Part shown: positions 19,834 through 28,851 of the stretch, piece after piece | Position numbering within the stretch: the stretch's first letter is position 1 | Layout of the letters: every line of letters begins with the position of its first letter | DNA from: Chryseobacterium gleum | GTDB lineage: Bacteria > Bacteroidota > Bacteroidia > Flavobacteriales_F > PHOS-HE28 | Assembly (NCBI GenBank): GCA_945872795.1 | Contig: CAMCAZ010000033.1 | Span: 1 to 41,615, forward strand | DNA length: 41,615 nt | Direction of reading: 5' to 3' | The notes under the pieces: generated by a model | Databases searched by the model: none | What the model saw: only the letters and a program-made list of their open reading frames with translations | Told to the model about the DNA's origin: nothing | Program-made: the position numbers and the translations under genes

Positions 19834-20991
19834 ATGCCCATCTACCACAGCCTCGGCAAGATCCCCCACAAGCGGCACACCATCTTCAAGAACGGCAAGG
19901 ACCGCTTCTTCTATGAGCAGCTCTTCGGCACCATCGGCTTCGATGGCATGAGCACGCTGAGCTACCACACCCACCGTCCCACGATGGTGAAGGAGCTCCG
20001 TAAGCCGAAGGACGTGACGCCCAAGATCGCGATCGAGAAGAACATGCGTTCGTTGCGCCTGCACGGCTTCAAGACCAAGCCCGAGAAGGACCACTTGGCC
20101 GCGCGCAAGACCATGCTGGTGAACAGCGATTGCGCCATCGTGCTCGCGGCGCCGCAGGCCCGTAGCGTGGACTACTTCTACAAGAACGCCGATTGCGATG
20201 AGATGATCTTCATCCACAAGGGCAGCGGCACCTTACGCACCTTCCTGGGCAACATCGACTTCAAGTACGGCGACTACCTGATGATCCCGCGTGGGATGAT
20301 CTACACGATGGAGTTCAAGGACGCGGACAACCGCCTCTTCATCGTGGAGAGCCACCGCCCCATGTACACACCCAAGCGCTACCGCAACTACTTCGGCCAG
20401 CTGCTGGAGCACAGCCCCTTCTGCGAGCGCGACATCCGCCGCCCGAAGAAGCTGGAGACGCACGATGAGAAGGGCGACTTCGTCATCAAGGTGAAGAAGC
20501 AGAACATGCTGCACGAACTGGTGTACGCCAGCCACCCCTTCGATGTGGTGGGCTGGGACGGCTACAACTACCCCTACGCCTTCAGCATCCACGATTTCGA
20601 GCCGATCACCGGCCGCGTGCACCAGCCGCCGCCCGTGCACCAGACCTTCGAGACCGATGCCTTCGTGGTGTGCAGCTTCTGCCCGCGCCTTTACGACTAC
20701 CATCCACAGGCCATCCCCGCGCCGTACAACCACAGCAACATCGACAGCGACGAGGTGCTGTACTACGTGGACGGCGACTTCATGAGCCGCAACGACATCG
20801 GACCGGGCCACATCAGCCTGCACCCCGCCGGCATCCCGCACGGTCCGCACCCCGGTGCCATGGAGCGCAGCATCGGCAAGAAAGTCACCGACGAATTGGC
20901 CGTGATGGTGGACACCTTCAAGCCGCTGATGGTGACCGAGGAGTGCTTGAAGATCGATGACGGGAAGTACTGGAAGAGTTGGGTGGAATAG
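19834..20991 (+). CDS. hmgA: Homogentisate 1,2-dioxygenase
   Basis: This iron(II) enzyme opens the ring of homogentisate to maleylacetoacetate, the central step of tyrosine degradation. The 385-residue cupin protein is of the shorter bacterial form. Characteristic segments include CDEMIFIHKGSGTLRT, FGNIDF-like LGNIDFKYGDYLMIPRG, and PFDVVGWDGYNYPYAFSI. Iron ligands are expected in HSNIDSDEVLYYVDGDF (His and Glu) and the C-terminal HPAGIPHGPHPG (His). It follows trhO by 34 bases. The next gene of the pathway, hppD, lies beyond an inserted cassette that starts only two bases after the hmgA stop codon, so an hmgA-hppD operon probably existed before the insertion. Confidence 0.94.
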   Translation: MPIYHSLGKIPHKRHTIFKNGKDRFFYEQLFGTIGFDGMSTLSYHTHRPTMVKELRKPKDVTPKIAIEKNMRSLRLHGFKTKPEKDHLAARKTMLVNSDCAIVLAAPQARSVDYFYKNADCDEMIFIHKGSGTLRTFLGNIDFKYGDYLMIPRGMIYTMEFKDADNRLFIVESHRPMYTPKRYRNYFGQLLEHSPFCERDIRRPKKLETHDEKGDFVIKVKKQNMLHELVYASHPFDVVGWDGYNYPYAFSIHDFEPITGRVHQPPPVHQTFETDAFVVCSFCPRLYDYHPQAIPAPYNHSNIDSDEVLYYVDGDFMSRNDIGPGHISLHPAGIPHGPHPGAMERSIGKKVTDELAVMVDTFKPLMVTEECLKIDDGKYWKSWVE

Positions 20992-20993
20992 CG

Positions 20994-21024
20994 GATCAGA
21001 CAATTAGAAGATCAGACGATCAGA
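20994..21024 (+). repeat. Left inverted repeat of the cassette
   Basis: 31 bases built from repeated GATCAGA units (GATCAGAC ... AGATCAGACGATCAGA). They pair with 21521-21551 at 27 of 31 positions, mismatches lying at one internal position and in a central five-base block. Confidence 0.8.
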
Positions 21025-21039
21025 AAATTGGAATGGCCC

Positions 21040-21495
21040 ATGGACCTGAGGAACGTTGATATCAAGGAGTGGCAGAACGCACTGGTGCGTGAGGAGCTTG
21101 TTGCTCAGAGCAACGTTTCTGAGCCGCCTGCCTCATATCATGCGCGTTACAAGGACAATGCGATAGTATCGATGACCATTCAATTCGCGCTTGGCATCTG
21201 GGACTTGGCAGAAGAGCTTAAAGAGAAGAGGAAGTTCGCGGTTTCCAACCAGTTGTTCCGAAGCGGCACTGCCATCGGCGCATTGGTACGTGAGGCACAG
21301 AATGGTGAGAGCTTGAAGGACTTCATCCACAAGATGAAGATCGCATTGAAGGAAGCAGACGAGACGGAGCACTGGCTCTTACTTTGCATCGAACGGAACA
21401 TCCAGAGCGCGAAGACCTCCCTCGATCGCTTGATCCCGATCGTGCGGGTATTGAACAAGATCATTTCCACCAGCAACGAGAAATTGAAACACTAA
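21040..21495 (+). CDS. Four-helix-bundle protein (23S rRNA intervening-sequence type)
   Basis: The 151-residue product contains the conserved core of the S23/IVS four-helix-bundle family: QFALGIWDLAEEL, FAVSNQLFRSGTAIGALV, REAQNGESLKDFIHKMKIA, LKEADETEHWLLLC. Relatives are encoded within intervening sequences of 23S rRNA genes and as scattered chromosomal copies; a related fold is the accessory protein Avd of diversity-generating retroelements. Members are basic oligomers thought to bind nucleic acid, but no firm function is known to me. ATG 21040 is chosen over TTG 21028. The codon use is AT-richer than in hmgA and hppD on either side, and the gene is enclosed by 31-bp inverted repeats, both signs of acquisition. 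No reverse transcriptase or variable repeat is nearby. Confidence 0.9.
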   Translation: MDLRNVDIKEWQNALVREELVAQSNVSEPPASYHARYKDNAIVSMTIQFALGIWDLAEELKEKRKFAVSNQLFRSGTAIGALVREAQNGESLKDFIHKMKIALKEADETEHWLLLCIERNIQSAKTSLDRLIPIVRVLNKIISTSNEKLKH

Positions 21496-21520
21496 CGTGG
21501 GTCGGTGGCTCGGGCGATCG

Positions 21521-21551
21521 TCTGATCGTCGGATCTTCTGATCTTCTGATC
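21521..21551 (-). repeat. Right inverted repeat of the cassette
   Basis: 31 bases (TCTGATCGTC ... CTTCTGATC), the inverted partner of 20994-21024. The arm is nine bases from the hppD ATG. A further GATCG precedes it. Confidence 0.8.
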
Positions 21552-21560
21552 CCTAAGAAC

Positions 21561-22706
21561 ATGGCAACCGGATTGAAAGACGTCGACTACGGCCTGGAGA
21601 AGATCATGGCCGATGCACAGGATTTTCTCCCGCTCTTGGGCACGGACTACGTGGAACTGTACGTGGGCAACGCCAAGCAGAGCGCGCACTACTACAAGAG
21701 TGCGTGGGGCTTCCAGAGCCTGGCCTACGCGGGACTGGAGACGGGCATGAAGGACCGCACGAGCTACGTGCTGGTGCAGGACAAGATCCGCCTGGTGCTC
21801 ACCACGCCCATGACACCGGACAGCCCGATCAACGAGCACATCCGCAAGCATGGCGATGGCGTGAAGGTGATCGCCCTGTGGGTGCCCGACGCGAAGAAGG
21901 CCTGGGAGGAGACCACCAAGCGTGGCGCGAAGAGCTTCATGGAGCCTGTGCGTGAGGAGGATGAACACGGCTACGTGATCCGCAGCGGCATCCATACCTA
22001 CGGCGAAACGGTGCACATCTTCGTGGAGCGCGACAACTACACCGGCGCGTTCATGCCCGGCTTCAAGCCCTGGAAGAGCCACTACAACCCGAGCGAAACG
22101 GGGCTGAAGTTCATCGACCACATGGTAGGCAACGTGGGCTGGGGCGAGATGAACACCTGGGTGGATTTCTACGCCCGCGTGATGGGCTTCGCACAGCTGG
22201 TGAGCTTCGACGACAAGGACATCAGCACCGAGTACACCGCGCTGATGAGCAAGGTGATGAGCAACGGCAACGGCCGCATCAAGTTCCCGATCAACGAGCC
22301 GGCCGAGGGCAAGAAGAAGAGCCAGATCGAGGAGTACATCGACTTCTACAACGGTGCCGGCGTGCAGCACATCGCGGTGGCCACCAACAACATCATCGAA
22401 ACGGTGGGCGCGCTGAAGGACCGCGGCGTGGAGTTCCTCTACGTACCGCCCAGCTACTACGACACGGTGATGGACCGCGTGGGCGAGATCGATGAGGACC
22501 TGGCGGTGCTGAAGCAGCACGGCGTGCTGGTGGACCGCGACGACGAGGGCTACCTGCTGCAGCTCTTCACCAAGCCGGTGCTGGACCGTCCCACGATGTT
22601 CTTCGAGATCATCCAGCGCAAGGGTGCCAAGAGCTTCGGGAAGGGCAACTTCAAGGCGCTGTTCGAGGCGATCGAGCGCGAGCAGGAGAACAGGGGGACG
22701 CTTTGA
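21561..22706 (+). CDS. hppD: 4-Hydroxyphenylpyruvate dioxygenase
   Basis: This iron(II) enzyme converts 4-hydroxyphenylpyruvate to homogentisate, the substrate of HmgA encoded upstream. The 381-residue protein has two vicinal-oxygen-chelate domains. The iron triad is visible: H187 in FIDHMVGNV, H270 in GVQHIAVATNNI and E349 in TMFFEIIQRKG. The N-terminal domain begins with DYVELYVGNAKQSAHYY. ATG 21561 is chosen because it follows directly on the cassette end and matches the family N-terminus (GLKDVDYGLEKIMADAQDF). Its last 51 bases occur again, diverged, at 23068-23118. Confidence 0.95.
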   Translation: MATGLKDVDYGLEKIMADAQDFLPLLGTDYVELYVGNAKQSAHYYKSAWGFQSLAYAGLETGMKDRTSYVLVQDKIRLVLTTPMTPDSPINEHIRKHGDGVKVIALWVPDAKKAWEETTKRGAKSFMEPVREEDEHGYVIRSGIHTYGETVHIFVERDNYTGAFMPGFKPWKSHYNPSETGLKFIDHMVGNVGWGEMNTWVDFYARVMGFAQLVSFDDKDISTEYTALMSKVMSNGNGRIKFPINEPAEGKKKSQIEEYIDFYNGAGVQHIAVATNNIIETVGALKDRGVEFLYVPPSYYDTVMDRVGEIDEDLAVLKQHGVLVDRDDEGYLLQLFTKPVLDRPTMFFEIIQRKGAKSFGKGNFKALFEAIEREQENRGTL

Positions 22707-22720
22707 CCATTTCGAAGTAG

Positions 22721-23053
22721 CCTTGGATAGTTGAAGTCGGACTTCAGAAATACAAGGCAACTTCCTCACAAGTTCCTAGGCTTGTTCGACCCGAGGCGTT
22801 CTTCTGGCGCACGCAGGCCGGTGCCGAGGTGGATCTGTTGATCCGCAATGGCAACCAGCTGTTGCCTGTGGAGATCAAGCTCGGCACTACGATTGACCCG
22901 CGCAGCCTGGCCGGATTGAAGCAGTGCATGAGCGACCTCGGCCTGAAGCGTGGGTGGGTCGTGAACACGGCAGAGGAACGGCGCATGCTTTCGCCGGGTA
23001 TCGAGCAGGTACCTTGGCAGGCGATCGTTGCGGGGGAGGTAAAGCTGTTCTGA
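22721..23053 (+). pseudogene. C-terminal remnant of a DUF4143 ATPase
   Basis: From about 22784 the frame reads VRPEAFFWRTQAGAEVDLLI, then LLPVEIKLGTTID, ending WQAIVAGEVKLF. This is the C-terminal nuclease-like DUF4143 domain (the ExD...ExK pattern in AEVDLL and VEIKLG) of the AAA ATPases common in bacteria. The ATPase domain is absent: an in-frame stop lies at 22718-22720 and no start is found. The entry is therefore a decayed tail of a larger gene. It lies between the true end of hppD and a second copy of the hppD tail. Confidence 0.75.
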
Positions 23054-24215: not shown

Positions 24216-24268
24216 GTTGTTCAGCACAGCCCGGGAAACGGAAGCGGCTGTACGATGGGCGCGGACCG

Positions 24269-24665
24269 GATAACTTCGCAGCTCCTTTTCCGACCCATGT
24301 ACCGCACCCATACCTGTGGCGAACTCCGCCTCCCTGACGCTGGCAAGACCGTGACCCTCGCCGGATGGGTCCAACGCACCCGCGACCTGGGCGGGATGAC
24401 CTTCGTGGACCTGCGCGACCGCTTCGGCATCACGAAGCTCAGCTTCAATAGCGAACGGGACCAGGCCCTGTGCGACCAGGCGAATAAGCTGGGCCGCGAA
24501 TTCGTGGTGCAGGTCACCGGTGTGGTGAAGGAGCGCGAGAGCAAGAACATCGCCACCGGCGAGATCGAGCTGGTGGTGACCGAACTGAAGGTCTTGAACA
24601 GTGCCAAGACACCACCCTTCACCATCGAGATCGATAGCTCGGTGGCGGAATACGTAGAGCAGTGA
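24269..24665 (+). pseudogene. 5' fragment of aspS (N-terminal anticodon-binding domain only)
   Basis: Positions 24269-24629 align with 27079-27444, the start of the complete aspS including its upstream TAACTTCG box. The ATG is 24297 and the frame stays open for 122 residues: [17 protein letters not shown] to [11 protein letters not shown], then 12 unrelated codons (SSVAEYVEQ) and a stop at 24665. Outside one block the copies differ at about four positions plus a six-base deletion (KN lost from SKNKNIATG); within 24434-24485 they differ at 16. The OB-fold alone cannot charge tRNA. It could be expressed, since the promoter-like region is kept, and the reading frame is intact despite the deletion. 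Confidence 0.85.
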
Positions 24666-27064: not shown

Positions 27065-27080
27065 GGCACCCGCCACCCGA

Positions 27081-27088
27081 TAACTTCG
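27081..27088 (+). promoter_or_regulatory. -7-like box of aspS
   Basis: TAACTTCG, one change from TAnnTTTG, ends 17 bases before the aspS ATG. The same sequence stands before the truncated aspS copy at 24271-24278. Confidence 0.4.
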
Positions 27089-27105
27089 CGTCCTTTTCGC
27101 GCACC

Positions 27106-28851
27106 ATGTACCGCACCCATACCTGTGGCGAACTCCGCCTCCCCGACGCTGGCAAGACCGTGACCCTGGCCGGATGGGTCCAACGCACCCGCGACCTGGG
27201 CGGGATGACCTTCGTGGACCTGCGCGACCGCTTCGGCATCACCCAGCTGAGCTTCAACACCGAGCGCGATGCTGCGCTCTGCGAACAGGCCAACAAGCTG
27301 GGCCGCGAATTCGTGGTGCAGGTCACCGGTGTGGTGAAGGAGCGCGAGAGCAAGAACAAGAACATCGCCACCGGCGAGATCGAGCTGGTGGTGACCGAAC
27401 TGAAGATCTTGAACAGTGCCAAGACACCGCCCTTCACCATCGAGGAGGAGACCGATGGTGGCGATGAGCTGCGCATGAAGTACCGCTATCTCGACCTGCG
27501 TCGTGCCAACATCCGGAAGAACCTGGAGCTGCGCCACCGCATGGCCATCGAGGTGCGCAACTACCTCAGTGCGCAGGATTTCCTCGAAGTGGAAACGCCC
27601 GTGCTGATCAAGAGCACGCCGGAAGGTGCCCGCGACTTCGTGGTACCCAGCCGCATGAACCAGGGGGAGTTCTACGCGCTGCCCCAGAGCCCGCAGACCT
27701 TCAAACAGCTGCTGATGGTGGCCGGCTTCGACCGCTACTTTCAGATCGTGAAGTGCTTCCGCGACGAGGACCTGCGCGCCGACCGCCAGCCCGAGTTCAC
27801 ACAGATCGACTGCGAGATGGCCTTTGTGGAACGGGAGGACATCCTCAACACCTTCGAGGGCTTGGCGAAGCATCTGTTCAAGGCGATCCTGGGCAAGGAC
27901 TTCAGCGAGCCCTTCCTGCGGATGAGCTACGACGATGCCATGCGGCTGTATGGCTGCGACAAACCCGACCTGCGTTTCGGGATGGAGTTCCATGAGCTGA
28001 ACGACCTGGTGCAGGGCGTCGGCTTCAAGGTCTTTGATGATGCTGAACTGGTTGTCGGCATCAAGGCCGAAGGTTGTGCGAATTGGAGCCGCAAGCAGAC
28101 CGATGCGCTCATCGACTTCGTGAAGCGCCCGCAGATCGGGGCCACGGGCATCGTCTTCCTGAAGTGGACGGAGGAGGGCCTGAAGAGCACGGTGGACAAG
28201 TTCTACACAGCGGAGCATTTGCAGAAGTGGGCCGAGCGTTTCGGCATGCATCAGGGCGATCTGCTCTGCATCATGGCCGGCGGTGCCGACAAGACCCGCA
28301 AACAGTTGAACGAGTTGCGCCTGCACATGGGCGAGCTGCTCGGCCTGCGCGATCCCTGGACCTTCAAACCCCTGTGGGTGGTGGATTTCCCGCTGCTGGA
28401 GAAGGACGAGGAAAGTGGTCGTTGGCATGCCATGCACCACCCCTTCACCTCCCCCATACCGGAGCACGCGCACCTCTTGGAAAGCGACCCCGGCGCGGTG
28501 AAGGCCAACGCCTATGACCTCGTGATCAACGGGACGGAGATCGGCGGTGGCAGCATCCGCATCCACGACCGCAGCATGCAGGAGGCCATGTTCCGCGTCT
28601 TGGGCTTCACCGATGAAGATGCCCGTTACAAGTTCGGTTTCCTGATGGACGCCTTCGAGTTCGGTGCACCGCCGCACGGTGGTGCGGCCTTCGGTTTCGA
28701 CCGCTGGGTAAGCCTCTTCGGTGGCCGCAGCGACATCCGCGAATTCATCGCATTCCCGAAGAACAACGCTGGCCGCGACGTGATGATCGATGCGCCTTCA
28801 AGGATCGATGATATCCAGCTGAAGGAACTAGGAATTCGAACGAATGGATAA
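27106..28851 (+). CDS. aspS: Aspartate--tRNA ligase
   Basis: The 581-residue class II synthetase is complete. It has the N-terminal OB-fold anticodon domain (residues 1-115; [21 protein letters not shown]), motif 1 and the flipping-loop region ([20 protein letters not shown]), motif 2 ([20 protein letters not shown]218-R219), the bacterial GAD insertion domain (about 300-410) and motif 3 ([16 protein letters not shown]). The Trp after the motif 3 Arg replaces the usual Leu. The C-terminus [16 protein letters not shown] differs from a second, more typical-looking tail encoded just downstream (28889-28996). ATG 27106 matches the family start. The presence of GAD identifies the bacterial type; whether it is discriminating or not cannot be judged by eye. 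Confidence 0.96.

Follow-up and report, generated by a model that had tools for sequence, protein, structure and literature searches.

Short tandem repeats are a puzzling feature of several bacterial groups, the STRR heptamers of cyanobacteria, found also within the RNase P RNA gene, being one example. Dispersed heptamers have been described in Xanthomonas (GGGAATC, mostly in arrays of four units, with about 70 convergent pairs) and in Nostoc (GGGGATT) (PMC4692102), as have TAACTGA arrays in Beggiatoaceae, Cyanobacteria and Bacteroidetes (PMC4679880). Both papers leave the origin of the arrays open, and the main text of neither mentions S23 or four-helix proteins. Other heptamers occur in an intervening sequence (IVS) of 23S rRNA: the IVS of Coxiella, 428 nt long, has GACAGAT heptamers right before its S23p ORF, in a number that varies among strains, and both the function of S23p/IVP proteins and the origin of 23S rRNA IVSs have been open for decades (PMC4990558).

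The locus considered here lies within the window, the whole stretch of 41,615 nucleotides that was analysed, and comprises an IVP gene, the sole gene between two facing arms, in a cassette that separates an hmgA-like gene from hppD (Table 1). It is like the 23S rRNA IVSs with an S23p/IVP ORF, known from Coxiella and Leptospira, in protein family, in its similar size and in its complementary ends. The comparison with these IVSs made in a preliminary description of this DNA was apt, since the Coxiella IVS too has variable heptamers ahead of its S23p gene (PMC4990558). Unlike them, the cassette lies between protein genes and outside any 23S rRNA gene, has an 8-bp unit and an ORF under purifying selection, and is accompanied by many ORF-less copies in the genome. 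With REPINs and their RAYT genes it has in common a lone gene bordered by a repeat, numerous inverted repeat pairs in the same genome that lack the gene, and lineage-specific expansions, but it lacks a Y1 (HUH) transposase, and its repeat is a tandem GATCAGAN array (of the 7-8-mer kind) rather than a GTAG-tagged palindrome. The protein is predicted to have the same fold as Avd of the diversity-generating retroelements, whereas the cassette itself holds no reverse transcriptase and no template or variable repeats. Finally, the arms are like the arrays of Xanthomonas, Nostoc and Beggiatoaceae in being lineage-specific, short tandem repeats, 7-mers in those cases and often convergent pairs in Xanthomonas.

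Table 1. Coordinates of the cassette and its flanking genes in the window
Feature	Position	Strand	Description
Upstream flank, hmgA-like homogentisate 1,2-dioxygenase	19834..20991	+	PF20510/PF04209
Left (5') arm	20993..21033	+	five 8-bp units: GATCAGAC AATTAGAA GATCAGAC GATCAGAA AATTGGAA
IVP / S23p four-helix-bundle gene	21040..21495	+	151 aa; ATG 21040
Right (3') arm	21516..21552	-	left-arm unit on the opposite strand; reverse complement GATCAGAA GATCAGAA GATCCGAC GATCAGAC GATC
Downstream flank, hppD, 4-hydroxyphenylpyruvate dioxygenase	21561..22706	+	TIGR01263 E 8e-134

The inverted repeat pairs 20993-21024 with 21521-21552 at 28 of 32 positions (32 nt, 88% complementary) across a spacing of 496 nt; the 27 of 31 pairs reported in the preliminary description are this stem minus its outermost pair. 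Its placement of the cassette two bases after the hmgA stop and nine before hppD is borne out by the coordinates, the stop codon occupying 20989-20991, with two bases between it and the GATC at 20994, and the hppD ATG standing nine bases past 21551. The inverted repeat itself was correctly recognised, but the tandem nature of each arm was overlooked: both are arrays of GATCAGAN that end on the inward side in a degenerate, AATGGAAN-like unit. In the left arm this degenerate inner unit is the final AATTGGAA, and both the left-arm unit and the inner unit of AATGGAAN type recur in dispersed copies. For the upstream gene, called hmgA in that description, the matches to HgmA domains hold, but the score is far under the HmgA equivalog cut-off and 'hmgA-like' is therefore the safer name. 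A TTG at 21028 is a possible alternative start for the IVP gene. No Rfam family matched within 20700-21900, and neither a sigma-70-like promoter nor a terminator was found in the cassette region.

Two further features of the window may be recorded. Just past hppD, at 22780-22990, a fragment matches the C-terminal end of DUF4143 (PF13635, E 1.7e-7); no intact gene was seen and it is probably a decayed one. At 24255-24665 the start of aspS is duplicated in truncated form (OB-fold, PF01336); over 372 bp this duplicate has 91% identity to aspS at about 27075-27445.

The IVP product, encoded by 21040-21492, is assigned to its family by profile matches to PF05635 (E 4.7e-19) and TIGR02436 (E 5e-22). 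AlphaFold models it as a four-helix bundle, with structural matches to 2rld (five chains), 2gsc and the Avd structures 4dwl and 8ube; the TM-score against 2rld is 0.83-0.88, normalised by target, for a model with a mean pLDDT of 70, built on a shallow alignment and unreliable in its N-terminal 38 residues. The protein evolves under purifying selection, dN/dS among orthologues being about 0.05-0.16 where dS could be estimated, with one close pair at 0.45. It has no known catalytic domain, as might be expected were it cargo between arms that serve as ends for some unrelated enzyme, a transposase or recombinase, encoded at another place in the genome.

Of 148 Bacteroidota genomes, 116 contain S23p/IVP genes, multiple copies being frequent. 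Arms around them were sought de novo by aligning upstream DNA with reverse-complemented downstream DNA, at a score cut-off of at least 30. In the main Bacteroidota set, 93 of 132 IVP genes have arms (73 of 103 distinct genes, for which mismatched pairs give 2.1%, and a further 20 of 29), and in a phylum-wide sample of about 150 genomes the figure is 15 of 30 against 1.5% for mismatched pairs. Arms were found at 7 of 145 control ORFs, three of which proved to be IVP genes, leaving 4 of 142 non-IVP ORFs. Such frequent arming of the tested IVP genes would be odd for random cargo. Of 16 IVP genes on cyanobacterial, Azospirillum and Gemmatimonadota (Gemmatirosa) plasmids, 14 are armed, mostly with period 7, against a mismatched null of 8% that is raised because units are shared. 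Among the 73 armed genes, 48 have a unit period of 7 bp and 20 one of 8 bp, while shuffled sequences give a flat distribution; purines are enriched in the 5' arm (0.61, p=4e-9), and cassettes have a median length of 558 bp. An IVP gene between inward-facing arrays of a short unit is thus a widespread class of small element that recurs across phyla. We found no description in the open-access literature of IVP genes with tandem-repeat ends; the link between heptamer-type arrays and IVP genes is what is new here. Some of the cyanobacterial-plasmid cassettes with repeat arms were seen within CRISPR operons (L345, L348, L350), between cas6 and cas4 and between cas10 and a cmr3-like gene.

The GATCAGA arms, singled out in the preliminary description as the feature to search for, recovered both dispersed arms and a second IVP gene from this genome. 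Across the 3.3 Mb genome GATCAGANNATCAGA matches 55 times, against none for the pattern read backwards, and these matches group into 35 arm clusters; all nine neighbouring arm pairs at most 600 bp apart face inward. The second IVP gene (C2:65909-66358), 73% identical to the first, is enclosed by arms of the same type. No shared sequence was found among the 11 arm-pair interiors compared, and no target-site duplication was seen by eye at nine copies; on these grounds a classical MITE or IS derivative was ruled out. Single, unpaired arms lie in frame within valS and pyrD, and metG also holds one. In the valS and pyrD linkers some members of the genus have in-frame arms, others have none or other repeats.

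Several other repeats were noted around these sites. Many single GATCAGA arms (L039, L042, L045, L046, L048, L057 and L058 in this genome) have another dispersed palindrome, GTCGACCCACTGGGTCGAC, no more than about 100 bp away; it is REP-like in sometimes having GTAG close by. The valS linker is an insertion-tolerant hot spot, and in G059, G032 and G003 (L199, L210, L222) it contains different in-frame inserts, LTPNPSPGERG-type palindromes. In the pyrD genes of G008 and G033 (L231, L232), GAGTGGC arrays face each other in an in-frame mini element.

Gene boundaries harbour many of the arrays, and this would suit a post-transcriptional regulon, in which the IVP binds its unit in mRNAs to affect translation or stability and the arrays are retained regulatory sites rather than selfish sequences. 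Strong purifying selection on the IVP is in keeping with such a role, and the TAACTGA arrays of Beggiatoaceae have been proposed as translational regulatory sites (PMC4679880). However, array positions vary between related species, no regulatory purpose is apparent for the arms that lie in frame in protein linkers, and many unrelated units coexist, all of which leaves a regulon decidedly improbable.

The RNA fold of the cassette, a check suggested in the preliminary description, predicts an end-to-end stem between the arms (z = -2.4). That description had offered RNA processing as one of two readings of the cassette, a stem in the hmgA-hppD mRNA being cut by RNase III so as to separate the two messages, as in 23S IVSs, and RNase III does cut the Coxiella IVS at its terminal stem (PMC4990558). 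Yet the arms of window-type cassettes pair only as well as chance predicts for two same-unit arrays (six of seven copies have p 0.37-0.85, L127 being the exception), so that the stem at hmgA-hppD looks like a by-product of facing arrays. Resampling thus lent no support, L127 apart, to selection of the stem for pairing in the window clade. Over all units, 27% of 91 arms, about a quarter, pair beyond the same-unit array expectation at p<0.05, and pairing may therefore matter, or be recent, in some families. Arm length varies by whole units. The two sides are unequal, with about nine units against three or four in L104; this inequality, together with the single arms within coding genes and the scatter of copies beside unrelated genes, also speaks against RNA processing, which we regard as quite unlikely.

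Within the genus, six genomes (G000, G059, G010, G032, G019 and G002) have an IVP cassette with GATCAGA arms at the hmgA-hppD junction, and a similar copy is present in a UBA2426 record; a search with an alignment of window-type IVPs found five relatives, all at this same junction. This copy is common to six or seven species and missing or a relic elsewhere. The junction is short and empty (26-31 nt) in G005, G015 and G011, that of G013 has a short arm relic, and that of G022 contains a C-terminal remnant of the IVP along with another gene and arms. The empty junctions, which the preliminary description had proposed to look for, support one of its two readings, that the cassette is a mobile element, as do the related arms across the genome and the second IVP gene with the same arms. 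Arrays of three GATCAGA-type units were found in the genus in 24 of 35 genomes, and in none of the 23 further genera sampled.

In a tree, the junction IVPs cluster together with the C2 copy outside (support 89). Their grouping makes it likelier that the hmgA-hppD copy is old, a single insertion that passed down to several species and has been lost or has decayed elsewhere, than that insertion was repeated; the position directly after a stop codon would be one that tolerates insertion. No clean recent insertion was caught between near-identical genomes: G032 and G019 are syntenic here, with intergenic DNA too diverged for the insertion ends to be read. Two relatives (L106, L109) hold another gene beside GATCAGA arms at hmgA-hppD, which would favour the IVP being a passenger, but L109 retains a C-terminal IVP remnant, indicating that an IVP cassette was there before the other gene arrived. 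Separately, unrelated inserts of 1.2-1.4 kb were seen at this junction in G016, G017 and G020 (L096, L112, L115), that of L112 resembling by eye a toxin-antitoxin pair; the junction is an insertion-tolerant site.

Units resemble one another where the IVP proteins are related. Mapped on the IVP tree, the period changes 5 times, compared with 16 under shuffled labels (0 of 500 shuffles), and clades share unit sequences such as GATCAGAN, GATTAGCN, CATGTGNN, GAAAGCT, AGTTGTC and AAGCCTC. Since the arms sit next to the gene, hitchhiking could account for a match of unit and protein that is seen only there. A test not trivially explained by linkage, and the one that bears on action in trans, comes from arrays dispersed elsewhere. 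For each of the three units compared, such arrays are more numerous where the matching IVP is present (GATCAGA, p=6.6e-4; GAGTGGC, p=1.6e-4; AGTTGTC, p=6.4e-3), in genomes that are related and so not phylogenetically independent, and with counts that include the few arrays flanking the IVP gene itself. All six cross-unit comparisons gave p>0.3. The genome richest in GAGTGGC arrays (G008, 86 matches) has an IVP bearing the GAGTGGC unit. One genome with an AGTTGTC-type IVP has no dispersed array under the strict pattern, and for several array-rich genomes no matching IVP was found in what is an incomplete IVP inventory.

These associations bear on two of the alternatives. Arms do occur in genomes without a window-type IVP, as a passenger would allow, but the unit tracks the IVP clade and the dispersed arrays track the resident IVP, and we consider it unlikely that the gene is mere cargo. 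Arrays might also be made and spread by slippage and template switching alone, IVP genes being adjacent by chance; changes of arm length in whole units and the strain differences in Coxiella heptamer number (PMC4990558) are what slippage would produce. Given that about 70% of IVP genes have arms while about 3% of other ORFs do, and that dispersed arrays are associated with the IVP in a unit-specific manner, this is very improbable.

We favour instead, with a probability of roughly 0.5, the reading that the cassette is one copy of the widespread element class and that its IVP acts in trans on arrays of its unit. The element would be REPIN/RAYT-like without a transposase, an IVP of the S23p/Avd fold recognising its own unit. 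Most likely the protein would be a ring of five that binds the unit in nucleic acid, perhaps with one unit per ring subunit, and would serve as a specificity factor acting on all arrays of that unit that the cell contains. Gene-less arm pairs and single arms would then be non-autonomous copies, standing to the IVP gene as REPINs do to RAYT genes, and the IVP would drive the spread of arrays rather than merely persist with it. As neither shared interiors nor target-site duplications were found, ordinary copy-and-paste of the whole element lacks support. A new copy may be made by a borrowed enzyme, either a host reverse transcriptase, as in diversity-generating retroelements, or the replication fork; the relation to Avd makes a reverse transcriptase worth considering.

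On this favoured reading, the element would include the 23S rRNA IVSs as a special case, and the heptamers of Coxiella and Xanthomonas, TAACTGA and STRR might share membership with the IVP arrays. A bolder and more tentative proposal, which we think somewhat more likely to be wrong than right, is that IVPs define a transposase-less class of mobile element, made up of a pentameric unit-binding protein and facing 7-8-mer arrays and relying on a borrowed copying enzyme, and that 23S IVSs and the STRR, GGGAATC and TAACTGA arrays are all its products. The element class may explain the puzzling short tandem repeats of several bacterial groups. The match of unit to protein, together with the unit-specific dispersed arrays, offers one testable answer both to the function of IVPs and the origin of the IVSs and to the source of heptamer arrays, and many natural protein/unit pairs are at hand with which that answer may be tested.
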